A program made the translations under genes and the position numbers. Shown here in pieces: positions 1,365-22,438 of a stretch of 23,835 nucleotides of DNA; the first letter of the stretch is position 1; each line of letters begins with the position of its first letter. The DNA is from a virus: IMG/VR virus record IMGVR_UViG_3300045440_000175, positions 1-23,835 of that record; one strand, given 5' to 3'. The notes under the pieces were generated by a model. That model did no database searches. It saw only the letters and a program-made list of their open reading frames with translations, and was not told the origin of the DNA.

Positions 1365-2183
1365 TTAGAACTTATGCTCGTCGATAAGTTTCTGCGTCGC
1401 CTTGGATGTAGGCTGACTCCATCCGAGCTGTTGAAGCAGCTTGGCGGCGTCGAGACCAGACATCCGAATCTTACCACTGTCATCTCCGGCGTCTTCAGCA
1501 TCCTTGGTCTTCTTGTCCACATAATCACGCAGGACCTTACTGTCTCCAACGACCAAGCCCGCGCGACCTTCAGAGACATAGGCGTCTGCACCACGACCCT
1601 TGCGTGGGCGCTTCGGAGCGTCAGACTCCATGCTTCCTGCCTTTTCCAAACCAGAAATAGCCTTACCGAGTTCGGAAGACTTGACCTTAAGGGCTTCGAT
1701 GCGGGTTCTGAACTTATCCTGACCAAGTTCCGATGCAACACCTTCCCAAAGCTTGCCATCAACGGCACGCTGGACGCGGCCGTCAGTCTCATCTTTGTCC
1801 TTTTGGAGGAGAGCCTTAACATAAGCAGTGTCTCCCTTCGATGCATCAATTGTCTTCTGGATATCTTCCCTTACAGCCTTACCAAAAGCCTCGCCACGTC
1901 CGAGAAACACGTTCTCAAGAGCATTGGCATCTTGTGCTTGGTCAATAGTCTTAAGAGAGTTCACAAACCCTTCTGTGATAGACTTGGCAGGCTTTTCAGA
2001 AGCGGGAATTTGTTTTGCGAGCTCGGCGGCGACGGCCTTTGTCGTGGCGGGAATGTCTTTGATGGGACCATTGCCTGCGGCTGCGAGTTGAGCCATGCGG
2101 GTTTCGGACCAGTTCTTGGGGATGGTGACATCCTTCCGAATGTCCCTGCCAGCCCCTTCAGATTTTAAAGCGCCTCGTGCCAT
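1365..2183 (-). CDS. tagged protein with MARGALKSE start, virion-module member
   Basis: This 272-residue protein is not recognised beyond its first nine residues, MARGALKSE, which match the tag shared by eight proteins in the window. The rest is highly charged and mostly predictable helix, with alternating Lys and Glu/Asp and no cysteines, hydrophobic segments or catalytic motif. Residues near 200-210 are a basic patch (PKRPRKGRG). It lies between TerL and the gpW-like and portal genes, where the surrounding genes build the head, so a virion-internal or head-assembly role is an inference from place. A TTGACA box precedes the ATG by 17 nt. It could also be a scaffold-like protein, but scaffolds normally sit after the portal. 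Confidence 0.85.
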   Translation of the reverse strand: MARGALKSEGAGRDIRKDVTIPKNWSETRMAQLAAAGNGPIKDIPATTKAVAAELAKQIPASEKPAKSITEGFVNSLKTIDQAQDANALENVFLGRGEAFGKAVREDIQKTIDASKGDTAYVKALLQKDKDETDGRVQRAVDGKLWEGVASELGQDKFRTRIEALKVKSSELGKAISGLEKAGSMESDAPKRPRKGRGADAYVSEGRAGLVVGDSKVLRDYVDKKTKDAEDAGDDSGKIRMSGLDAAKLLQQLGWSQPTSKATQKLIDEHKF

Positions 2184-2216: not shown

Positions 2217-2750
2217 TCAATCCAAAAGGCGAACTCGCACCACGCCATCCTTCTTCAGCGACTTGAAGGAATACCAGACGCCCGGACCATTGTTCTTGGG
2301 GCCATAGATATCGACGCCTTCGGGGGCATCCTTAATCGTGTTGCGGCCGACCCTGACCTTCAGGTCTGGAACGAGGAACTGCATCTTCTGTCCTTCGACA
2401 TCGATGACGGTTGAGAGGGTAACCTTAAGGGTCTTGGCGGCATAGTTATCCTTGTCACCAGAGGGCTTCTCACCACGGATTCGCTTGTCCTCCTGCGTGG
2501 CAAACTGGTCTATCTTGTCCTCTAGGGTTTCAAGTAGTGCGACACGGTTAATGCGGCCATCCCTGCCCTTCTCATCCATCCAACCTTTGAAAGCCTTCTC
2601 GGTGCGGTCGAGCTTCTCAAAAGCCTCCGTGTTAGAGATGTCTGTCTCGCGCCCAATGCCAATACGCGTGAACCCATCCCCTTCTATCTGAAGGGTTTGA
2701 CGGAAGCTGGATGGGAGTCCAAAATCGGACTTTAGTGCGCCGCGTGCCAT
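2217..2750 (-). CDS. tagged protein with MARGALKSD start, TerL-proximal
   Basis: This 177-residue protein begins with the full tag MARGALKSD. Beyond the tag it is not recognised. The first half is charged helix (around residues 40-95, with KLDRTEKAFKGWMDEKGRDG). The second half looks beta-rich, with alternating hydrophobic residues (KTLKVTLSTVIDVEGQKMQFLVPDLKVRVGR), and it ends WYSFKSLKKDGVVRVRLLD. This suggests a helical stalk plus a small beta domain. It is the first protein gene after tRNA-Glu and TerL and has its own TTGACA box. There are no cysteines and no membrane segment. The tag and the position among packaging genes suggest a virion-associated protein, which is inference. Confidence 0.85.
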   Translation of the reverse strand: MARGALKSDFGLPSSFRQTLQIEGDGFTRIGIGRETDISNTEAFEKLDRTEKAFKGWMDEKGRDGRINRVALLETLEDKIDQFATQEDKRIRGEKPSGDKDNYAAKTLKVTLSTVIDVEGQKMQFLVPDLKVRVGRNTIKDAPEGVDIYGPKNNGPGVWYSFKSLKKDGVVRVRLLD

Positions 2751-2972: not shown

Positions 2973-3047
2973 TGGCGGAGTCACGGAGAATCGAACTCCG
3001 ATTACGCGGATGAAAACCGCGTGTCCTGACCGTTAGACGATGACTCC
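2973..3047 (-). tRNA. tRNA-Glu(TTC) with encoded CCA
   Basis: The minus strand folds into a full cloverleaf: acceptor GGAGTCA/TGACTCC, D-arm with AACGG, anticodon stem CGCGG/CCGCG with loop TTTTCAT (anticodon TTC), T-stem CGGAG/CTCCG with loop TTCGATT, discriminator G, and an encoded CCA. The D-arm and overall sequence are close to ordinary bacterial tRNA-Glu. It lies between the stop of TerL and the tagged gene 2217-2750. Phage tRNAs usually supplement host decoding or replace host tRNAs cleaved by defence nucleases; which applies here cannot be told. Confidence 0.95.
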
Positions 3048-3184: not shown

Positions 3185-5047
3185 CTACTCGGAGGGCATC
3201 TCTTTTTCCGGAGCGTTAACCACTGGTGCCGCGACTTCAGCGGGCTTCTCTGCGGGCGGGATTGCCGCCGCATTCATTAGGCCGAACGCCAGAGCCGGAA
3301 TAAACTGCATCACCTCGCAGTCCCACAGGTGATTCGCTCGCTTACCGATTCGCTTCCACTCTGGCTTGCCAGTAACATTCTTTACTCGGACCTCGCTGTC
3401 CATCTGGTCGAGGTAGTCCTGCCCCGCATCGTTGGCACAGGAGTGCTTCCCTGTGCGTCGCAGGCGCGACAGTTGGTCCTTGAGCGCCAAGTTGGAGAAG
3501 TGGTGGACTCGGACTGCCCCCGTTCCGACGTTCACTAGTCGAGCTGGAGCATAGACCTTGGCAACCATCTTGAATCCCTGCGGGGTCTGAATCCGCCAAG
3601 GGAAGTCATACCGCTGGTCCCCTCGTAGGGCTGTCCACTTGTTGATACCGCACTGCCGGATGACGTCGTCGAACTGGTCACCACAGTCCACATAGACAAA
3701 GGCGGGAATGACCTCATTCACCTTGGCGAGTTGGGCGACGTCTTCCCAAGTCTGGACGAACTTCCACTTGTGCAGGCGCGATTCGCCGCCGAGCGCCCAA
3801 GCCCGGATGAGGCAATAGAATCCGTTTCTCTGAACGTCCACGGTCATAAACCGCAGCTTGAGCTGCTTCTCGCGCGTGTGGTCGTTGTGGACCTTGCGGG
3901 TGGCGGGGTCAATGAGCGAGGCCTCGCCCCATGCATCACCCATCTTATACTGCCCTATTGCCTGCAAGGTGTCAAAGGCGTCGGGGGCATCAGACCAGAA
4001 TTTGGCGAGCTGCTTCTGCTCAAAAATTTGCATAGCCTTTGCGTCGCCGTTGGCATCGATGGCATTCTTCGCCCGGAGATACATCTCCGCCAGACCGCCC
4101 CACGAGCGTGCGGCTAGAGCATTCCAATGGAAGCCCACCTGTGCATCATCTGCCGTCGGATTCTGCTTCGCATAAAACCCATTCGCATTCATCGCATCTC
4201 TGTTCGTGCGCGTATCCTTAAAGCGATGCAGACACCCCTCGCACTCATAGGTCGTGTCCACCTTGATGACCTGAAAATTCCAATCCCCATCCGCATCGGT
4301 CGCATTCTCTGGAATCCGAATCTGCTCCCACTTGAAGGGCTGCTTGAACCCGCACTCCGGACAGGCGAATGACCAAGTCCTCTTATCCGTAGTCTGCCAA
4401 CAGGCCTCCGTATCGTCGCCCTGAAACGACCCCTGCGACATAAAGATTCGCTTACCCAACCAACCGAATGAGGTCACACGCGCGGAGGCTTCCGCCAAGT
4501 GTCCCTGCGGCCACAGCCAAGTTTCATCCCCGATGAGCCATCGGATAGACCGCCTCTGTAGGTTCTTCTCATTGAACGCCCCCAGACACCAGAAGGTCAT
4601 ATCCGCCGTCTGCACCGTCCCCGCCTTCTTCTTCTCCTCATCCTTGGTCAGCTTGGACAGCACCGCCGGAACATTCTCCCAGAGAACGCGTAGTCGGCTC
4701 TGCATCCAGTCCGCCGCATTGGAATCTTGGTCATTCAGGTAGAGCGTCGGCGCTGGTTGACGGGCAATAATGAAACAGGATAACATCTCCGCCGCCAAGG
4801 ACTTGCCAGACTGAATCGGGGCTATCAGCTGCACTAGTCTAATTTCGGGGTCGGCAAAAGCCCGGAGGGGTTCAGCCAGCCACGGTGTCTCCGCCACTCT
4901 AAACCCACTAGGCATCGGTGAAAACGGAATCTGCCTGATGTTGTCCTCCAGCCACTTCACGATATCCCCACCATCGTCAGGTCGAAAGACCTTCCGCAGC
5001 TTGGCTTCCAATCGGTCGCCAATCTTCTCCTTGTCGGCAGGCGTCAT
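3185..5047 (-). CDS. terminase large subunit, GpA family
   Basis: This 620-residue protein is the ATP-driven DNA packaging motor and concatemer-cutting nuclease, working with TerS and the portal. The ATPase Walker A is APIQSGKS (76-83) and the Walker B is WLIGDE (170-175). A zinc-ribbon-like insert has CPEC (229-232) and CEGC (269-272). The C-terminal nuclease half includes the acidic TVDVQ (D404) and YVDCGD (D454) motifs. Length is near that of lambda gpA (about 640), and GpA-type enzymes usually go with cos-type packaging. Its ATG overlaps the TerS stop (ATGA), indicating translational coupling. The C-terminus is rich in Pro and Ala (about 600-615), plausible for a portal-docking tail. Confidence 0.95.
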   Translation of the reverse strand: MTPADKEKIGDRLEAKLRKVFRPDDGGDIVKWLEDNIRQIPFSPMPSGFRVAETPWLAEPLRAFADPEIRLVQLIAPIQSGKSLAAEMLSCFIIARQPAPTLYLNDQDSNAADWMQSRLRVLWENVPAVLSKLTKDEEKKKAGTVQTADMTFWCLGAFNEKNLQRRSIRWLIGDETWLWPQGHLAEASARVTSFGWLGKRIFMSQGSFQGDDTEACWQTTDKRTWSFACPECGFKQPFKWEQIRIPENATDADGDWNFQVIKVDTTYECEGCLHRFKDTRTNRDAMNANGFYAKQNPTADDAQVGFHWNALAARSWGGLAEMYLRAKNAIDANGDAKAMQIFEQKQLAKFWSDAPDAFDTLQAIGQYKMGDAWGEASLIDPATRKVHNDHTREKQLKLRFMTVDVQRNGFYCLIRAWALGGESRLHKWKFVQTWEDVAQLAKVNEVIPAFVYVDCGDQFDDVIRQCGINKWTALRGDQRYDFPWRIQTPQGFKMVAKVYAPARLVNVGTGAVRVHHFSNLALKDQLSRLRRTGKHSCANDAGQDYLDQMDSEVRVKNVTGKPEWKRIGKRANHLWDCEVMQFIPALAFGLMNAAAIPPAEKPAEVAAPVVNAPEKEMPSE

Positions 5048-15873: not shown

Positions 15874-16134
15874 GTGGCAAAGCACTTCGATAAGAATGAC
15901 TACACGGATGAGGAACTGATTTCGGTTCAGTCCATCAAGCCGAGATTCCTATGCCCGCACTGTATGGGTCGCAACTGGAAGGACACGACCACTTTCAAGA
16001 CGCCTCCGGGTGCGAGGCTCTGGACTGCCTCTTCGGTCTGCAATGCTTGCGAGAAGAAGGTCAGATGGCTCATAGACCCAGACAGGACGATGGAACTTCA
16101 GACCGAAAAGATGCACCGACCAATCGGTCTTTAA
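15874..16134 (+). CDS. small zinc-ribbon-like protein
   Basis: This 86-residue protein carries two CxxC pairs, CPHC (27-30) and CNAC (56-59), spaced as in a zinc ribbon. The start is taken as GTG 15874, preceded by AAGGG at 8 nt; the frame also opens at TTG 15832, directly after the previous stop. It is the last rightward gene, and its stop overlaps by 4 nt the stop of the leftward tagged gene at 16131, with no terminator between the converging genes. The ribbon may bind nucleic acid or protein. Confidence 0.65.
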   Translation: MAKHFDKNDYTDEELISVQSIKPRFLCPHCMGRNWKDTTTFKTPPGARLWTASSVCNACEKKVRWLIDPDRTMELQTEKMHRPIGL

Positions 16135-16625
16135 TCGTAGTTCGGGCGGTGGTATGAGCTGCCGATGGTCGCTGTGCCAGCATACTTGCCTCCGACTTCC
16201 TTCAGCCCAACGATACGACCATCGCTCTTATCAAGGACGAGTTTGCTTCTGTCTCCGAGCGTTCCATCGGCTCGAACAATCGCTACGGTCACAGACCTAT
16301 CCTTGACTTCCGTGATTCGGTGGACGGAGCTGGCTGACCCATAGTAATGATAGATTGATACTGCATCTCCCCGGACCAAGAGGTCCTTGAGTGAGCCTGC
16401 TGCGTTCTCATTGAAAAACTTCTCGATACTGATGATTGGCGTCCGCCTTACAAGAGGGCCTGCGCCTCCTGTGCTGGAGCTGTAAGCATCTCTGTTGCGA
16501 GCCTGCTTGTTGCTGATAGCCAGCGGCATAGCATCCATAGTGGATGCCCATTCCCCCTCTATGGGATTCTTAACCCGCATCCCGACAGCCGCCATCAGGT
16601 CGCTCTTAACATTGCCTCTTGCCAT
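16131..16625 (-). CDS. tagged protein with MARGNVKSD start
   Basis: This 164-residue protein begins with the tag MARGNVKSD; the A-to-N and L-to-V changes make it the most diverged full tag. The middle has a serine/glycine-rich linker (DAYSSSTGGAGPLV) and a segment IISIEKFFNENAAGSLKDLL. The C-terminal half looks like a small beta barrel (VSIYHYYGSASSVHRITEVK, then VTVAIVRADGTLGDRS). No catalytic pattern is recognised. It has its own TTGAC box and lies at the distal end of the leftward accessory block, converging on the plus-strand chain. Confidence 0.85.
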   Translation of the reverse strand: MARGNVKSDLMAAVGMRVKNPIEGEWASTMDAMPLAISNKQARNRDAYSSSTGGAGPLVRRTPIISIEKFFNENAAGSLKDLLVRGDAVSIYHYYGSASSVHRITEVKDRSVTVAIVRADGTLGDRSKLVLDKSDGRIVGLKEVGGKYAGTATIGSSYHRPNYD

Positions 16626-16650: not shown

Positions 16651-17205
16651 TCAGATAGATGCCGATTCATTCATCTGACGGCCGTCTTCATCCCTGATTA
16701 CAATGTCAGCATGAAAACGGGATGAGCGTCCATTTTTATCCAGAACTCGGTATGAGTTAACCACCCTCTTTGCTTCCGAAAACACTTGTTCAGCATCTTG
16801 GCGGGATGCTTTCATAGTTATGCTGAAGTCCGGCATGTCACCCGGCTCATCGGGCTGGAATGTTGAAATAGAAGTCAGGACGCCGCGAGCAGCGAGAACG
16901 CTGTTATTCATCAGGTCGTGAGCAAGCATTACCTTGAGTTTGCGACGGTCTCCTCGACCGCCAAGTTCAAATCCACTCAAGAATCCAACCTTGGAACCAA
17001 CCGTGTTGCGCTCACCGTCGGCATTTATAACTTCACGGGCATCCGTCTTGGTTTTCTTAAAGACGACGGCATCAAAGCCCCTCTCGGATGCGACAGACTG
17101 AAGAGCGGCTTCTATCTGGCTTGTGCCGAATTCAGATGTTCCGACAAGGTCGGAGCGGAGCTTACCGCGCACGCGAGCATCAGACTTTATTGCACCTCTT
17201 GCCAT
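16651..17205 (-). CDS. tagged protein with MARGAIKSD start
   Basis: This 184-residue protein has the tag MARGAIKSD, followed by a basic repeat of it (ARVRGKLRSD), so the tag may be duplicated in degenerate form. The core reads as alpha/beta: helix IEAALQSVASERG, strand FDAVVFKK, long loop with GGRGDRRKLKVML, then a helix DAEQVFSEAKRVVNSY. The GFDAVVFKK motif resembles the GYDAVRYTD stretch of the neighbouring ART-like protein, but no other ART motif is visible. It has a TTGAC box right after the previous stop. Confidence 0.85.
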   Translation of the reverse strand: MARGAIKSDARVRGKLRSDLVGTSEFGTSQIEAALQSVASERGFDAVVFKKTKTDAREVINADGERNTVGSKVGFLSGFELGGRGDRRKLKVMLAHDLMNNSVLAARGVLTSISTFQPDEPGDMPDFSITMKASRQDAEQVFSEAKRVVNSYRVLDKNGRSSRFHADIVIRDEDGRQMNESASI

Positions 17206-17220
17206 ATCGTTTGGATAAGT

Positions 17221-17227
17221 GTCAATC
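17221..17227 (-). promoter_or_regulatory. RRTTGAC box before tagged gene 16651-17205
   Basis: GATTGACA lies 15 nt before the ATG at 17205. TTGAC begins immediately after the TGA stop of the ART-like gene. Confidence 0.5.
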
Positions 17228-18104
17228 AGCCTGTCCTATACTCAATCTTGTCGAGGAGGAATCGGGTCTTGTCGAACTCTTCCCCCGGCTTCCAGCCCGG
17301 AAACCTTGGCGTCCGCTTCTGCTCGCGCGTGCTGTCGAACATATTATCGGAGCTCTGGTTGACCTTGCTGTCGCCAAAGTAAGATTTGAATTGCGAGCCG
17401 CTCTTAAAGGCGACCGACGACTTGTTATCCTGACCTGAATCCGTGTAGCGGACAGCGTCATAGCCCTGCTTCTCCAGCTCCTTCATAAACGGCTTGATGC
17501 CGAAAATCTCATACGTCCAAGTGATTGGTCGCTTGTCCAAAGCCTTTTCCATCTTGGCAACGAAAGCCTTGTCGTCTCGCTTGCCAAGGATGTCCGCTAG
17601 GACTTCCGCCTGTGGCATCCGGTTAACGCCACTCTTGCCCTTGTCCAGCGGCCAGTATTGGGTGCTGATGTGCAGACCTGTGACGTCGAGCAACTTCTTC
17701 GAGTCCAGCACGCCCTCGATGAGAGCTGTGTTCTGCGGGTATCCGGGGCGAGCAAGCTTGCCGCCGTAGTATGAGGCATACCGCATATCAGGGGTAACGT
17801 GATTCCAATCTCCACGGACGCGACCGTCTTGGTCCTTCTTCCACTTGGTGTCCCATTGACCGCTGCCGAGCGACTCATAAGCACCCTGACCACGATAGAC
17901 GACCTCCTGAACCTGTGAGTTCTTTCTGATTTCCTCAAGCTCTGCGATGCGTTCTGGCGAGCCGCCAGCCTTGCCGAACATATTTAATTCGCGTGTAGGC
18001 TTGCCCGTCTTCGGGTCAAACATATCGACCGTCACAGGATTGCGAGGCCACTCGCCAACTCCCTGTCGGGCGACGCTGTCTGTTTTTAGTGTGCCTCTAG
18101 CCAT
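17226..18104 (-). CDS. tagged ADP-ribosyltransferase-like protein
   Basis: This 292-residue protein begins MARGTLKTD. After the tag, residues about 66-245 match the order of an ADP-ribosyltransferase of the kind found in phage polyvalent proteins: an Arg after strand 1 (VVYRGQG, R71), then HVTPDMRYASYYGG (102-115), which fits the F-T-x-D-x-x-x-A-x-x-Y motif, a VLDSKKLLDVTG strand-turn, and a late GYDAVRYTDSG...SSVAFKSGSQFKS (214-241) matching the terminal strand pair where family members read YDGV and VVFDPSQIKS. The usual catalytic Glu is not obvious. Such enzymes use NAD to modify host proteins. The start overlaps the upstream stop by one base (TAATG). Function is inferred from motif order. 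Confidence 0.7.
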   Translation of the reverse strand: MARGTLKTDSVARQGVGEWPRNPVTVDMFDPKTGKPTRELNMFGKAGGSPERIAELEEIRKNSQVQEVVYRGQGAYESLGSGQWDTKWKKDQDGRVRGDWNHVTPDMRYASYYGGKLARPGYPQNTALIEGVLDSKKLLDVTGLHISTQYWPLDKGKSGVNRMPQAEVLADILGKRDDKAFVAKMEKALDKRPITWTYEIFGIKPFMKELEKQGYDAVRYTDSGQDNKSSVAFKSGSQFKSYFGDSKVNQSSDNMFDSTREQKRTPRFPGWKPGEEFDKTRFLLDKIEYRTG

Positions 18105-18598
18105 TAGTGTATCCCGATTGTCTGCCCCCTGATGCGTTCGTCAATTTCATTTGCCATCCGGGCAAAGGATGCCCGCTGAAGATGTAGCATAGCATCACGC
18201 TCACCATCGCCAAGGGCGATTGGGAATCTGACCGAGGCGATTGCCTTGACCTCGCCAGATGAGTCCCAGAAGACCACCGCACGCTTGAAGTCGGCTTCTG
18301 CCGTGGGGACATTCGCACGCAAAGCCCTCACCAAGGCGAGATAAGCCCGACCCGAATCCTTTGCCAGCTCGTCGACCTTGTCGAGCAAGCCGCGGGCGTT
18401 GAAGTCATCGAGAATAGGCGTCGGAATCGCCCTGTTGACGATGTTCCGGATGATGGATGTCTCCATGCCACTAGCATCGAGCGCTTGGTCCAGCTCGCGC
18501 CACATTTTGTTTTCCTCCAGAGCCTTGTCGATGTGGGACTGCTGCGACTTCGCCTTGGCGATAGCCTCGGTCACGATTCGCTCAAGGGTTTCCTTCAT
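18104..18598 (-). CDS. untagged helical protein coupled to the ART-like gene
   Basis: This 164-residue protein is not recognised and lacks the tag. It is mostly helix: LERIVTEAIAKAKSQQSHID (5-24), then IRNIVNRAIPTPILDDFN, then a strand pair around AVVFWDSSGEVKAIASVRF and a final helix LQRASFARMANEIDERI. Its TAA overlaps the ATG of the tagged ART-like gene, so the two are translationally coupled. As the only untagged protein gene beside an ART, it could be a partner, chaperone or antidote, but nothing in its sequence shows this. Confidence 0.75.
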   Translation of the reverse strand: MKETLERIVTEAIAKAKSQQSHIDKALEENKMWRELDQALDASGMETSIIRNIVNRAIPTPILDDFNARGLLDKVDELAKDSGRAYLALVRALRANVPTAEADFKRAVVFWDSSGEVKAIASVRFPIALGDGERDAMLHLQRASFARMANEIDERIRGQTIGIH

Positions 18599-18670
18599 AT
18601 CGGTTGAGGGATGTCCACCTTTGTGGTTGCCTTCCCCTTGGGACTAGGGACGATGTTCGGCCACACGACT

Positions 18671-19243
18671 ATGGTATCCATCGAGCTCACCAAGCAGATG
18701 AAGGACTTCGCTTGGGCGGTCGTGTCCAGCCGGAACTTCGGTCAGCGGGAGCGAGGAGGCAACGGAAACCTTCAGCAGCAATACACGGGAATCCTTGGCG
18801 AGACAGTCGTCAACCTGTTGGCGAATGGATGCCTACCCTCTTACAATGAGTTCAGCATTACGGACCTGACCATCAATGAGCATCGCGTCGATGTGAAGTC
18901 TATGGGTCGCAACGTCCCCTTCCGGGACGGCTTTGTGCATAACTTCGTCGCTTACCAGAAGGAGCATCCCAACGACATCTACATCTTCACTAGCGTCAAT
19001 CGCAAGGCATCGACCGTCGAGATATGCGGATGGTTAACCAAGCCGCTGTTCTTCGAGCGTGCGAGCTTTTACGACAAGGGTTCCACCCGGCGACGAGCCG
19101 ATGGAACTTCCTTCGAGACTTTCGCTCCTCTTTATGAGATAGACAATCGCCTGCTGCACCCCATATGTAACAGACAGGACATAGCGAAAGTCGGTATGGG
19201 TCTGTCGTTCAACGGACAGGACTGCGCTCTTCTAAAGCGCTAA
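18671..19243 (+). CDS. PD-(D/E)XK-like nuclease running into tRNA-Arg
   Basis: This plus-strand gene interrupts the leftward block. From ATG 18671 it encodes 190 residues; ATGs at 18611 and 18653 are alternatives. The order GILGETVVNLL (E44), DLTINEHRVDVKSMG (D74, K76) and later IYIFTSVNRKASTVEICGWL resembles a PD-(D/E)XK nuclease core, where Glu, Asp and Lys bind metal and the last strand precedes a Gly-Trp. The last 15 codons and the stop lie inside the tRNA-Arg gene, so the C-terminus (from about GLSFNGQ) is translated tRNA sequence. It could degrade host or rival DNA. Codon use does not stand out clearly. Confidence 0.65.
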   Translation: MVSIELTKQMKDFAWAVVSSRNFGQRERGGNGNLQQQYTGILGETVVNLLANGCLPSYNEFSITDLTINEHRVDVKSMGRNVPFRDGFVHNFVAYQKEHPNDIYIFTSVNRKASTVEICGWLTKPLFFERASFYDKGSTRRRADGTSFETFAPLYEIDNRLLHPICNRQDIAKVGMGLSFNGQDCALLKR

Positions 19244-19269
19244 TCTGGGTTCGATTCCCAGCGGACCCA
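19198..19269 (+). tRNA. tRNA-Arg(TCT)
   Basis: The cloverleaf has acceptor GGGTCTG/CGGACCC, D-arm GTTC/GGAC, anticodon stem GCGCT/AGCGC with loop CTTCTAA (anticodon TCT, reading AGA/AGG), T-stem CTGGG/CCCAG with loop TTCGATT, and discriminator A. CCA is not encoded. The 5' half overlaps the nuclease gene's end, and the 3' end is one base from the stop of the converging small gene at 19271. The D-arm (AACGGACAGGAC) resembles that of the tRNA-Glu at 2973 (AACGGTCAGGAC). Confidence 0.93.
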
Positions 19270-19270
19270 C

Positions 19271-19417
19271 TTACTTCTTCGGCGCAACCTTCTTAATGAT
19301 TGCGTCGATGTTAATTTCCTTCACCGGATTCTTCGGCGGCATCGGCTTGGTGGGGTTCTTGATTTCGTGGCGTTCGGTGAACTCGCCGCCGTTGCTGGGC
19401 TTTTTTCCTTTGGTCAT
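19271..19417 (-). CDS. 48-residue basic unknown protein
   Basis: The ATG at 19417 overlaps the stop of the JAMM-like gene (ATGA), and the frame runs 48 codons to TAA next to tRNA-Arg. The product is basic and Pro-rich: TKGKKPSNGGEFTERHE, then NPTKPMPPKNPVKE, then a hydrophobic-charged end INIDAIIKKVAPKK. No membrane segment or family. The exact overlap and steady coding character make it likely real despite its size. It may be an accessory to the JAMM-like protein. Confidence 0.6.
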   Translation of the reverse strand: MTKGKKPSNGGEFTERHEIKNPTKPMPPKNPVKEINIDAIIKKVAPKK

Positions 19418-20118
19418 TTGGATTGTGTAATCTTGTAATTAAGTCCGTAAATTTTATCCATTGCAAGAGCGGATTGATTGATGACCTCAATCTGGACTTC
19501 ACGCGGTGCGTGGTCTAGGGGGTTGTAATCCTTGCCGCCCGAATATCCGAGTTGCGAGAATATCTCCTTCCGGAGCTTCGCATGGGTGCTGGAAATCTTG
19601 TCTACGGATGTCTTCCAGAACAGGGAGTCACGAGGCGGAGACATCGAGTAAGTCATCCCGTCCTCCACCCCGACCGCTCGCAGCTCCTTGATGTTGTTCT
19701 TGCGCATCTCTACGATGTCTGCGCGGCTCAAGGAGGAGCCTGATGGGTGATTATGGGTAACCACCGCCCCCGCTAGTAACTTGGCCTCCTTGGCGTTAAA
19801 GGACACCGAAGCGCCTTGGCCTGCGGTGATGATGGCTCTCGCTGCTCCGTTCTTACCGAAAATGACGAGGGTCTCGAATTCCTGAACGCCGATGATGCGC
19901 TCGGCTGTCGCAAGGTCGGCCTCCACCAGCTCCTTGGGAAATACGAGTCCGCTTTTCCCGGAGTTGAGGAGAGGGGCTAAACGCTTGTCATCTAAAGCCT
20001 CATTGGCTTTAACTTCACTCTCATATGCGGTCAGCTTGGGCTTATTCGCGCGGGCGCGGGTAGCCACATCGGCATTAAATGCTCCGCCCCGGCTTCCTGT
20101 TCCTGCTCCTCTTGACAT
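19414..20118 (-). CDS. RadC/JAMM-like metalloprotein with degenerate tag
   Basis: This 234-residue protein has a weaker form of the shared start (MSRGAGTGSRGG). Its core matches the RadC/JAB fold: strand ETLVIFGKNGAARAIITAG (82-100), helix LLAGAV, then THNHPSG (121-127) and SRADI (131-135). The two His and the later Asp fit a zinc-binding JAMM site (HxHPSG...S..D), with one residue fewer than usual between H and S; a candidate catalytic Glu is E79 or E82. JAMM domains cleave isopeptide or peptide bonds, and RadC-like copies occur in phage polyvalent proteins. It is coupled to the small gene at 19271. Confidence 0.75.
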   Translation of the reverse strand: MSRGAGTGSRGGAFNADVATRARANKPKLTAYESEVKANEALDDKRLAPLLNSGKSGLVFPKELVEADLATAERIIGVQEFETLVIFGKNGAARAIITAGQGASVSFNAKEAKLLAGAVVTHNHPSGSSLSRADIVEMRKNNIKELRAVGVEDGMTYSMSPPRDSLFWKTSVDKISSTHAKLRKEIFSQLGYSGGKDYNPLDHAPREVQIEVINQSALAMDKIYGLNYKITQSK

Positions 20119-20536
20119 CTTGCTTATGGGGTTCAGTCAACCGCCTGTGGCGGAGGGTTCGACCAAGTTTGTTAAGCTTTCCATAGTTCGGTGTCATTGC
20201 ATGACAGTTTGGGCAGAGGGCTTCAAGGTTCTTTTCTACCGTGTTCAGGGCATTGCCATCGATGTGATGGACCTGAAGGGGGACGCGACCTGTGACCGGA
20301 TGATACTCCCGCCAGCCACACTTGGAGCATTGGTTCTCCGCCTTGGCTATGATGTAGTTCCTTATAGGCTGTGACAATTGGAGCTGCTCGCCCCTGACTC
20401 CATTGAAGCGACCCGCCTTCCAGTCCTTAATGGTCTGCTTGTTCTGGTAATCGTTCTGGCATGTGTGGGAACAATACTTTCCGGGACGGTTTTTTCGCCG
20501 CCCGAAATCAGTCTTACAATTATGGCAAGTCCCCAC
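20075..20536 (-). CDS. HNH endonuclease, homing-type
   Basis: This 153-residue protein has an N-terminal zinc motif (CHNC at 4-7, YCSHTC at 21-26) and a C-terminal HNH core: CSKCG (70-74), PLQVHHIDGN (86-95, catalytic His pair), a following Asn (about 103) and CPNCH (108-112). This pattern is common in free-standing phage homing or nicking endonucleases. The start is GTG 20536 after a TTGAC box. The 3' end overlaps the JAMM-like gene by 44 nt in another frame and includes that gene's box, so it may have inserted at this junction. The leader just upstream is G/C-rich, unlike the A/C-rich leaders elsewhere. Confidence 0.8.
   Translation of the reverse strand: MGTCHNCKTDFGRRKNRPGKYCSHTCQNDYQNKQTIKDWKAGRFNGVRGEQLQLSQPIRNYIIAKAENQCSKCGWREYHPVTGRVPLQVHHIDGNALNTVEKNLEALCPNCHAMTPNYGKLNKLGRTLRHRRLTEPHKQDVKRSRNRKPGRSI
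20136..20142 (-). promoter_or_regulatory. RRTTGAC box before JAMM-like gene, inside HNH gene
   Basis: GGTTGACT lies 17 nt before the ATG at 20118, within the end of the HNH coding frame. Confidence 0.45.
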
Positions 20537-20568: not shown

Positions 20569-21054
20569 TTACTTCAGGTAGTCCTTGAGGGCTGTGCGCT
20601 CGAAGTCCTTCTGGAGGTCGATGAGACGGTCAGCGGCTTCATCGCCACGCTCGTCCTGCCAATCCTCATAAGACTGCTGCTCGGCGTCGGGGCTATCAGC
20701 ATCCTGCTCGGCTTCCATGTCCTCTTCATATAGGTCTTGGCTCGACGTGCCATCCTTCTCCCATGAGCGCCGGACACCAAGCATATGGTCGGCAAGTTCG
20801 GTCTGCTTGGCGGGCGTTAAGGCCTTAATCTTGTCCTGAAGGTCCTTGGGAACCCAAGACTTCTTCTCGGTCAACTCCTTGACCATATCCCGTTCAGGTT
20901 CGCTGCGGGAGTTGTCGATAGAGCGCTGGGCTTCGCGTGCCTGCTTCTTGGTCACGTTAGCCTCCACCGTCTGACGAAAGTTCTTGGGGTTGTATGCCTT
21001 GTCCTTGCCTCTGTCGGCCTTGGAGAAGTCTGATTTCAGTGAGCCTCTTGCCAT
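20569..21054 (-). CDS. tagged protein with MARGSLKSD start, acidic helical
   Basis: This 161-residue protein begins MARGSLKSD. It is mostly charged helix: basic first half (TKKQAREAQRSIDNSRSE) and a very acidic stretch near 105-135 (LYEEDMEAEQDADSPDAEQQ). No cysteines, hydrophobic segment or enzyme motif. The acidic centre and length suggest a flexible or scaffold-like virion protein, which is inference. It starts 3 nt after the stop of the tagged gene upstream, so it is translated by coupling and lacks its own box. Confidence 0.85.
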   Translation of the reverse strand: MARGSLKSDFSKADRGKDKAYNPKNFRQTVEANVTKKQAREAQRSIDNSRSEPERDMVKELTEKKSWVPKDLQDKIKALTPAKQTELADHMLGVRRSWEKDGTSSQDLYEEDMEAEQDADSPDAEQQSYEDWQDERGDEAADRLIDLQKDFERTALKDYLK

Positions 21055-21057
21055 AAA

Positions 21058-21504
21058 TTAAAGGTGTCCTTGGTTTTTGAGCCAATCCTGCATAAACTCA
21101 ACGGCAGAGGTAGCCTTCCAGTTTCGCTCTGTGAGTCCATAGAGGTCGGTATCTTCTCTCATGTTCCTGCGCAGGGCGGCCACGGCGTCGTTTCGGTCTG
21201 CCCTTTGAATGGCAGCATCGTTGCTCTGGATTAAGTTGATGAACTTATTGAAGCCCGGAATGCCCGGATTCCTGAAGCCCTTGTAGTCTCCGCTCATTCG
21301 GTTATACTCCTTGAGGCGAGCGGCGTCGGCCTTGGGTGTCGCGCCAGCCTTGCGGGCGGCAACCTCATCAGCCCTGCGACCACGTTCTGCAAGTTCGTCC
21401 TTATCCTGACTGCGTAAGGCTTCGTCCTTCGCGCGAGTCTTGTAAGCCTCGTCGATGTAGTTACCCTTATTCCGTAAATCTGACTTTAGAGTTCCTCGTG
21501 CCAT
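21058..21504 (-). CDS. tagged protein with MARGTLKSD start
   Basis: This 148-residue protein starts at ATG 21504, where MARGTLKSD begins; the frame opens four codons earlier at a TTG (21516), rejected because the tag fixes the start. The sequence is helical and charged: ALRSQDKDELAERGRRADEV, a PGIPGFNKFINLIQSND stretch, then an aromatic end (ATSAVEFMQDWLKN). It has two TTGAC sites upstream, at 29 and 7 nt, neither at the 15-17 nt spacing. It is coupled with the tagged gene at 20569. Unknown function. Confidence 0.85.
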   Translation of the reverse strand: MARGTLKSDLRNKGNYIDEAYKTRAKDEALRSQDKDELAERGRRADEVAARKAGATPKADAARLKEYNRMSGDYKGFRNPGIPGFNKFINLIQSNDAAIQRADRNDAVAALRRNMREDTDLYGLTERNWKATSAVEFMQDWLKNQGHL

Positions 21505-21533
21505 ACAGATAGTCAAGTGGTTGAGTTGATAAA

Positions 21534-21544: not shown

Positions 21545-22438
21545 TTAGTCGACCTTTGCGATTTGGAAACGCTGTTCGGCAAGGGAGTAAGTGGTGTCGG
21601 TGAGCTTGGCATCGGGGGCTTTGACCACCCGGACAATCTTACCACCCTCGAACCAGACTCGCATAGCCGAACCCTGTTCGGGCAAAGCATACTGGCGGAA
21701 TGAAGGAGCTTCACTCCATCTCGTAGGAATGGTAACCACAGCATACTTGCCCTGCGTATTGATGTTCCGGTGCTGGTTAGCATCGATAAGCGTCTTGAGG
21801 CTGGCGGCAGCGTGATACATCTCGCCAGCGGACATCTCAAAGGTCTTCATGCGACCGAACAGGCGGGTGGCACTGTCCTTGCCGACCAAGGAGTTCAGAT
21901 TGAAGTGGTCACCCGTGGCGTCGGTAACCACGCCCGACTTCTTGTTGAATTCCGGGTTAATCTTATATCGGTAAGAGGCGGGCGAGGTGATAGCCTTGAG
22001 ACCCTTATACTCCTTGTCCATAGCCTTGAAGAGCTCGGTGTCGCCCTTGTTCCGCTCTGCCATCGCATTGAGTTGGGTGGCAAGTTCGGAGGCGCGAGCC
22101 TTCATTCGCTGTAGGACTTCTGGGTTCTTGCGGAGGAACTCGTCATTATAGTTCGACACATCGACGCTATTCGGAATCGGGATAGCCTTCACGCCGTGGC
22201 TAGTAACGATGTCCTTGGGGTCATAGCCCAACAGGCGGAGTTGCATCCCAGAAGCCTTTTCAAGCCCAGCCGGAAGAGCCTCAAGGCCTTCCCTGCGAAG
22301 CCTGTTGATGACAAAGCCCTTCTCGCCCGCTGCGGTGAGACCAAGCTTGGCGATGGACTCGCGTTCACTATCAGACGACCCAAAGAGTCGCTGGTTACGC
22401 ATAGTCCCGATATCAGATTTAAGAGCGCCTCGTGCCAT
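21545..22438 (-). CDS. largest tagged protein of the accessory block, MARGALKSD start
   Basis: This 297-residue protein starts MARGALKSD. Residues about 25-100 read as helix and turn (ERESIAKLGLTAAGEKGFVI, then RLLGYDPKDIVTSHGVKAIP). The middle is charged helix (RMKARASELATQLNAMAERN). The C-terminal third is beta-rich (YAVVTIPTRWSEAPS, then SAMRVWFEGGKIVRVVK). A central HFNLNSLVGKDSATRLFGRM stretch precedes AAASLKTLIDANQHR. No family is recognised; the length would fit an enzyme of about 250 residues. It opens the tagged block on the leftward strand and has its own box. Confidence 0.85.
   Translation of the reverse strand: MARGALKSDIGTMRNQRLFGSSDSERESIAKLGLTAAGEKGFVINRLRREGLEALPAGLEKASGMQLRLLGYDPKDIVTSHGVKAIPIPNSVDVSNYNDEFLRKNPEVLQRMKARASELATQLNAMAERNKGDTELFKAMDKEYKGLKAITSPASYRYKINPEFNKKSGVVTDATGDHFNLNSLVGKDSATRLFGRMKTFEMSAGEMYHAAASLKTLIDANQHRNINTQGKYAVVTIPTRWSEAPSFRQYALPEQGSAMRVWFEGGKIVRVVKAPDAKLTDTTYSLAEQRFQIAKVD

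Follow-up and report, generated by a model that had tools for sequence, protein, structure and literature searches.

IMG/VR virus record IMGVR_UViG_3300045440_000175 (23,835 bp, the whole entry, probably a genome fragment, and hereafter the window) encodes a series of proteins that begin with nearly the same short peptide. This N-terminal tag, M-A-R-G-x-[LIV]-K-[ST]-[DE], opens eight genes, all on the minus strand, one of them for a probably ADP-ribosyltransferase (ART)-like protein; the start of a JAMM/RadC-like protein carries a weak form of it. An earlier note on this DNA had claimed such a shared tag, and it is real: the corresponding DNA pattern occurs exactly seven times in the window but in none of 100 dinucleotide-preserving shuffles, and there is an eighth copy, MARGNVKSD, that deviates from the DNA pattern. 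We found no mention of MARG-type tags in the open literature. The tagged genes, and the terminase gene used as a marker in searches for relatives, are as follows.

1365-2183, minus strand: tagged protein MARGALKSE, between the genes for the large terminase (TerL) and the head
2217-2750, minus strand: tagged protein MARGALKSD, also between TerL and the head genes
3185-5047, minus strand: TerL, the marker for relative searches
16131-16625, minus strand: tagged protein MARGNVKSD; orthologues at L034:1899 (MARSYSSSTSRVARSD), L153:8807 (MATRTGSRSNYSNRVLASD) and L199:15204 (MATRSDRQRLARAD)
16651-17205, minus strand: tagged protein MARGAIKSD
17226-18104, minus strand: tagged, probably ART-like protein MARGTLKTD, 292 residues (MARGTLKTDSVARQ); orthologues at L153:10178-11566 (MPSRNGSGAYGRSLRAD) and L199:12573-14066 (MASRSGSKAMTASLMAD)
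18078-18104, minus strand: tag MARGTLKTD of that protein
20569-21054, minus strand: tagged protein MARGSLKSD
21058-21504, minus strand: tagged protein MARGTLKSD, its start set at 21504 rather than at the TTG upstream at 21516
21545-22438, minus strand: tagged protein MARGALKSD

Tags in related phages

Relatives, which come from lakes, were collected by TerL and capsid searches, mostly as fragmentary contigs, and the tag differs among them. It is MARGYSQSRSE on about 21 proteins of G008, MATRSxxQxLASD on about 24 of G082, MARGxxSxGRAARSE on about 12 of G014, MARGNNQSxSSVRSE on 4 of G016, MP[ST]RN..SL[KR]S[DE] on 3 of G028 (plus MATRTGSRSNYSNRVLASD), and MARSYS..VRSD on 2 of G005. Overall, the bodies of 89 tagged proteins from 10 phages (JAMM proteins included) fall into 56 families, and no homologous pair was found among the tagged bodies within G008 or within the window. 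For 79 of the 89, the nearest tag on a non-homologous protein is of the same tag type (chance expectation 16; reached in 0 of 2000 shuffles), although within-versus-between figures such as this one are inflated, given that the tagged sets were gathered partly via tag similarity. Each tag type stands for one phage, except that the sister phages G013 and G014 were pooled.

The comparison of orthologues across tag types is less affected by this. Among 72 non-JAMM comparisons, 66 have a tag that is closer to unrelated tags of its own phage type than to the tag of the orthologue, and a smaller, earlier orthologue set, trimmed to the tag and with JAMM and pre-capsid proteins excluded, gave 27 of 28. 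The initial form of the test, which used the first 20 residues, scored only 34 of 72, since residues of the body and of a JAMM-specific stretch leaked in. Individual proteins illustrate the pattern: depending on the phage, the ART-like protein begins with MARGTLKTD, MPSRNGSGAYGRSLRAD or MASRSGSKAMTASLMAD, the protein encoded at 16131-16625 with MARGNVKSD, MARSYSSSTSRVARSD, MATRTGSRSNYSNRVLASD or MATRSDRQRLARAD, and a pair of GNAT-like orthologues that are 59% identical over 87 residues with MARGNPMSMGRAARSE in one case and MATRSTNKSLQSD in the other. It might be supposed that the tagged proteins descend from ancient gene duplications or from recombination and have a leftover N-terminus in common, and some are indeed paralogues (a pentapeptide pair in G016 and an ART-like set in G082). 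However, most bodies are unrelated, the flanking DNA is dissimilar, and the differences between the tags of orthologues contradict such an origin, which we regard as scarcely credible.

Codon identity within tags was 0.43, 0.36 and 0.32, versus 0.39, 0.33 and 0.28 expected from codon usage, with third positions near-random, and the DNA flanking the tags is unrelated. Thus, it is the peptide that is under selection, rather than DNA that has been copied, and an origin of the tags from duplicated DNA or a recombining cassette is ruled out. Selection at the peptide level, in turn, implies a phage-specific partner. The location of the tag exactly at the start codon might suggest that it merely tunes translation initiation or protein stability, but the amino acids are conserved while third codon positions are free, and the tag is carried by certain genes only, with a phage-specific sequence; we consider this explanation very improbable.

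Most tagged genes, the JAMM gene (20136-20140) and an HNH endonuclease gene have a TTGAC element, possibly a late promoter or a translation element, ∼7–20 nucleotides ahead of the start codon (in the window, it is upstream of the starts at 16625, 17205, 2183, 2750, 21504 and 22438). A looser TTGAC/TGGAC pattern is enriched in the window, where it precedes 5 of 8 tagged genes and 3 of 21 other open reading frames, and in G008 (10 of 19 vs. 11 of 74), and is not enriched in G082 (1 of 20).

A search for the window-type tag pattern across all of IMG/VR returned only 4 loci and revealed no family. At the MASGSLKS.. loci (L008, L010 and L011), no open tagged gene begins where the sequence was read (L008 and L010), and the tag-pattern locus L009 is a lone internal start within a longer frame. 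In a more distant pair of contigs (L064:9760-11375 and L065:7072-8897), two consecutive proteins share MLKPRAE; in L064, they directly precede the capsid gene. Pre-capsid and near-TerL genes of the distant relatives G085, G083 and L190 start with MAGRTFY, MAGRSYR or MGRSYE, perhaps a tag of their own.

The JAMM and ART-like proteins, separate and fused

The two proteins singled out by the earlier note differ in how firmly they can be assigned. The features concerned are the following.

19414-20118, minus strand: JAMM/RadC-like protein, 234 residues, with a weak tag (MSRGAGTGSRGG)
20083-20118, minus strand: its variant tag (MSRGAGTGSRGG)
19423-19926, minus strand: JAMM fold, residues 65–232, with E82, H122, H124, S131 and D134
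17334-17909, minus strand: conserved ART-like region (residues 66–257 of the 17226-18104 protein) with VYRGQ, HVTP..YA.YY and GYDAV...QFKSYFG, from alignment and hhalign

The protein encoded at 19414-20118 is a JAMM domain protein. It has HNHPSG and SRADI at residues 122–135, and E82, H122-x-H124-P125, S131 and D134 are invariant in an alignment of 34 phage sequences, which matches the JAMM signature E-x(n)-H-x-H-P-x(n)-S-x2-D. An AlphaFold2 model has a mean predicted local distance difference test score (pLDDT) of 81.5, with values >90 over most of the domain and mostly low confidence in the N-terminal ∼55 residues. The top Foldseek match in the PDB is Pyrococcus PfJAMM1 (probability 0.97, but E-value 0.02), then Chlorobium RadC, and a second structure aligner found mainly Rpn11, PfJAMM1, AMSH, CSN5, BRCC36, RadC and Cap3, with Z-scores of 5–7 (about 6–7 for the top rows, which are mostly JAMM/MPN) that are modest and point to a consistent family. 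The Pfam RadC model (PF04002) matched at an E-value of 0.15 and 12.4 bits, under its cut-off of 22.1, and no Pfam model scored above cut-off. The invariant residues, the confident model and the JAMM/MPN structure matches bear out the earlier RadC/JAMM call. The description of the protein as weakly tagged was likewise apt: its own tag (MSRG...) is weak, orthologues in related phages mark it as a variant of the same tag type, and the G082 orthologue bears the canonical local tag (MATRSVSQTALQSD).

The protein encoded at 17226-18104 is, judging from its motifs, probably ART-like. The only orthologues found, both full-length, are those of G028 (463 residues) and G082 (about 498 residues), and they keep the VQEVxYRGQ-like, H[VL]TP..YA..Y and DAV..Y...QFKSYFG motifs. 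An hhalign comparison with ART-PolyVal (members of PF18760) gave probabilities of 83–86%, over the C-terminal 51–60 columns only, versus 0.5% for an unrelated JAMM control. Searches with this protein in phages, the PDB, Pfam, PHROGs and NCBIfam gave nothing (one returned only matches with E-values of 8–9), and no PF18760 match turned up in 20 records, mainly from the group. The AlphaFold model, from a 2-row alignment, has a pLDDT of 34 and is unusable. The catalytic triad of polyvalent ARTs is H in strand 1, Y in strand 2 and D in strand 5 (PMC5512222); in the sequence alignment this is not kept, with R71 (of VYRG) at the strand-1 position, the tyrosines retained, and no conserved acid before QFKSYFG. 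The ordered ART motifs that the earlier note described are there, and two orthologues conserve them but not a catalytic acid; structure and profile comparison of the two proteins confirmed the JAMM fold and yielded for the ART-like one the C-terminal hhalign match. It may be that the ART-like protein modifies host targets, or that it is no longer catalytic. Another tagged family, present in G082, G008 and G028, has R-G, mostly SFT, and [EQ]xE, which by motif only is the R-S-E layout of ARTs; when two different ART-like families were compared by hhalign, the tag alone aligned.

An untagged gene for 164 residues (18104-18598) overlaps the ART-like start by one base and is conserved near the JAMM gene in G005/G006, and the HNH endonuclease gene (20075-20536) overlaps the JAMM gene, with untagged homologues (53–65% identical) in four JAMM-carrying relatives. 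The window also has genes for tRNA-Glu (2973-3047, minus strand) and tRNA-Arg (19198-19270, plus strand).

A JAMM scan returned 80 viral loci. Outside the group, JAMM is mostly the C-terminal domain (starting near residue 300–420) of proteins of 450–570 residues, and many of its fusion partners look like MuF minor-capsid proteins: the L091 protein matches Pfam Phage_Mu_F at an E-value of 6e-4, under the curated cut-off, and BFVD labels proteins resembling these fusions “Minor capsid protein.” In L130, a contig unrelated to the group, a single protein of 1632 residues has ART-PolyVal (PF18760, 69.5 bits with neighbors) together with a homologous JAMM, and GGPGSGNFGH[SA]GRPGEVGGS (with minor variants) occurs seven times in it, preceding successive domains. 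L122 has a comparable arrangement with F[ND]PxQxRDxxGRW-like motifs. The same domain is therefore found fused to MuF-like proteins, within a concatenated chain and, with a tag, as a gene of its own. Neither the window nor any of the group relatives examined joins the ART-like and JAMM proteins, which are encoded by separate genes and so are not polyvalent in the sense of at least two effector domains per polypeptide. This supports the earlier picture in which individually tagged pieces replace a single fused chain, with the fused counterpart found in unrelated L130 (and, for JAMM, in the MuF-like proteins of other phages) and not in the group relatives examined. Repeated motifs of L130:5567-10462 and L122 (GGPGSGNFGHSGRPGEVGGS; F[ND]PxQxRDxxGRW) also occur on adjacent separate proteins, and we found nothing on the GSGNFGH/HNQKTHG motifs in the open literature. 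In G015 (L050), proteins of 464 and 490 residues share MPTEEGDKRxG..ASDVL, and the longer one has a JAMM-like domain as well as a C-terminus rich in glycine.

Head-operon placement and the proposed role of the tag

The window, L028 and L026 have tagged genes located between TerL and the head–tail connector or portal genes. In relatives, the gene directly preceding that for the major capsid protein encodes a protein starting with MARG, MARS, MATR or (in G010) MPGSN, the order being portal, S49-like protease, scaffold-like protein, pre-capsid tagged protein and major capsid. Domains on tagged proteins include HD_4 hydrolase (above cut-off in one G008 protein), JAMM, ART-like, pentapeptide repeats and GNAT (a weak match), a repertoire that resembles the kind seen in injected effectors.

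A concerted, phage-specific tag requires only a phage-specific partner, not one in the head, and the tag could instead be an intracellular assembly address that brings proteins to a complex or compartment encoded by the phage. We consider this unlikely, given that several tagged genes are within the head operon, that most of the tag-bearing relatives examined with that region encode a tagged protein right before the capsid, and that homologous JAMM domains are fused to MuF-like capsid proteins. Another option is a maturation or processing signal, cut at [RK]S[DE] by a head protease or a host peptidase, in which case the tag would serve release rather than loading. Most tags do finish in xS[DE], and relatives encode an S49-type head maturation protease, but a cleavage site alone leaves the conserved M-A-[RT]-[GRS] start unexplained; this seems to us quite improbable.

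The explanation that we favor, and hold to be reasonably likely, is that the tag is an address for loading separate effector proteins into the virion, functionally like the capsid targeting sequence (CTS) of T4. We favor it because the tag exceeds chance, it is carried by unrelated bodies, it changes in concert among orthologues, tagged genes lie in the head operon, the domains are of effector type, and JAMM is fused to MuF-like proteins elsewhere. The tag would be read by a phage-encoded head component (candidates are the scaffold and the tagged protein whose gene directly precedes that of the major capsid protein), so that many separate effectors enter the prohead and are injected along with the DNA into a new host, where JAMM would act as a metal-dependent peptidase or deconjugase. 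Several points weigh against this. A trans-acting receptor in the scaffold or capsid, presence in the virion, and injection are steps that we infer; the JAMM orthologues follow the local-tag pattern in only 19 of 40 comparisons and retain a JAMM-specific TGxRGG stretch; tag similarity was part of how the tagged sets were assembled, as noted above; the closest TerL proteins of cultured phages are ∼24% identical; and T4, the known CTS phage, has a different head protease, whereas the one here is S49-like and cleavage of the tag is hypothetical.

TerL relatives in bacterial genomes are mostly from Verrucomicrobiota (28–43% identity), and among the phage TerL matches listed, Verrucomicrobia phage P8625 has the best E-value; hosts are thus likely Verrucomicrobiota. 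More tentatively, and with somewhat more doubt than confidence, we suggest that each of these probable Verrucomicrobiota phages has its own peptide address and a co-evolving head receptor, with at least 20 effectors per virion in the larger ones, that incoming genes are domesticated by acquiring the local tag, and that motif-repeat polyvalent proteins are the concatenated form of the same tag-plus-domain units. If virion loading is correct, a virion could be filled in modular fashion with many effectors and fusion would be unnecessary. The tag would list the injected proteins of uncultured phages from sequence alone, giving about 20–24 candidates for either of the two largest relatives, the majority of them without a known family. 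How internal virion proteins are chosen would become directly testable, with the tag differences between orthologues serving as ready-made natural swaps, and virus-like particles might gain new tags for cargo loading.

Comparison with known systems

The closest functional parallel is the T4 CTS of the internal proteins IPII and IPIII, which can direct GFP into the core of the head (PMC9958956); T4 also packages and injects an ART, Alt (PMC5512222). As in the group, the CTS is a short (∼10 residues) N-terminal peptide common to different proteins. A T4-type CTS is further characterized by directing its protein into the prohead and by its removal by the prohead protease. However, the tag of the group differs in sequence and changes from phage to related phage, the head module is lambda-like (TerL, portal and S49 protease), and the largest relatives have at least 20 tagged proteins versus a few in T4.

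Phage polyvalent proteins (Iyer et al. 2017) have an overlapping domain repertoire (ART, JAMM/RadC and others), whereas in the window the domains are on separate genes. The earlier note had both ART and RadC/JAMM domains as reported in phage polyvalent proteins, which does not hold for RadC: Iyer et al. (2017) list it for polyvalent proteins of conjugative elements, not for the phage type. MuF toxin domains are reported to include ARTs and metallopeptidases (Jamet et al. 2017, PMC5576092), and a homologous JAMM is the C-terminal domain of MuF-like proteins of ∼500 residues; the window JAMM, in contrast, is free and tagged, without a MuF fusion. Finally, the window JAMM shares catalytic signature and fold with RadC/JAB and JAMM deconjugases (PfJAMM1, Cap3, Rpn11), but is about 7–22% identical to them in structure-based alignments.

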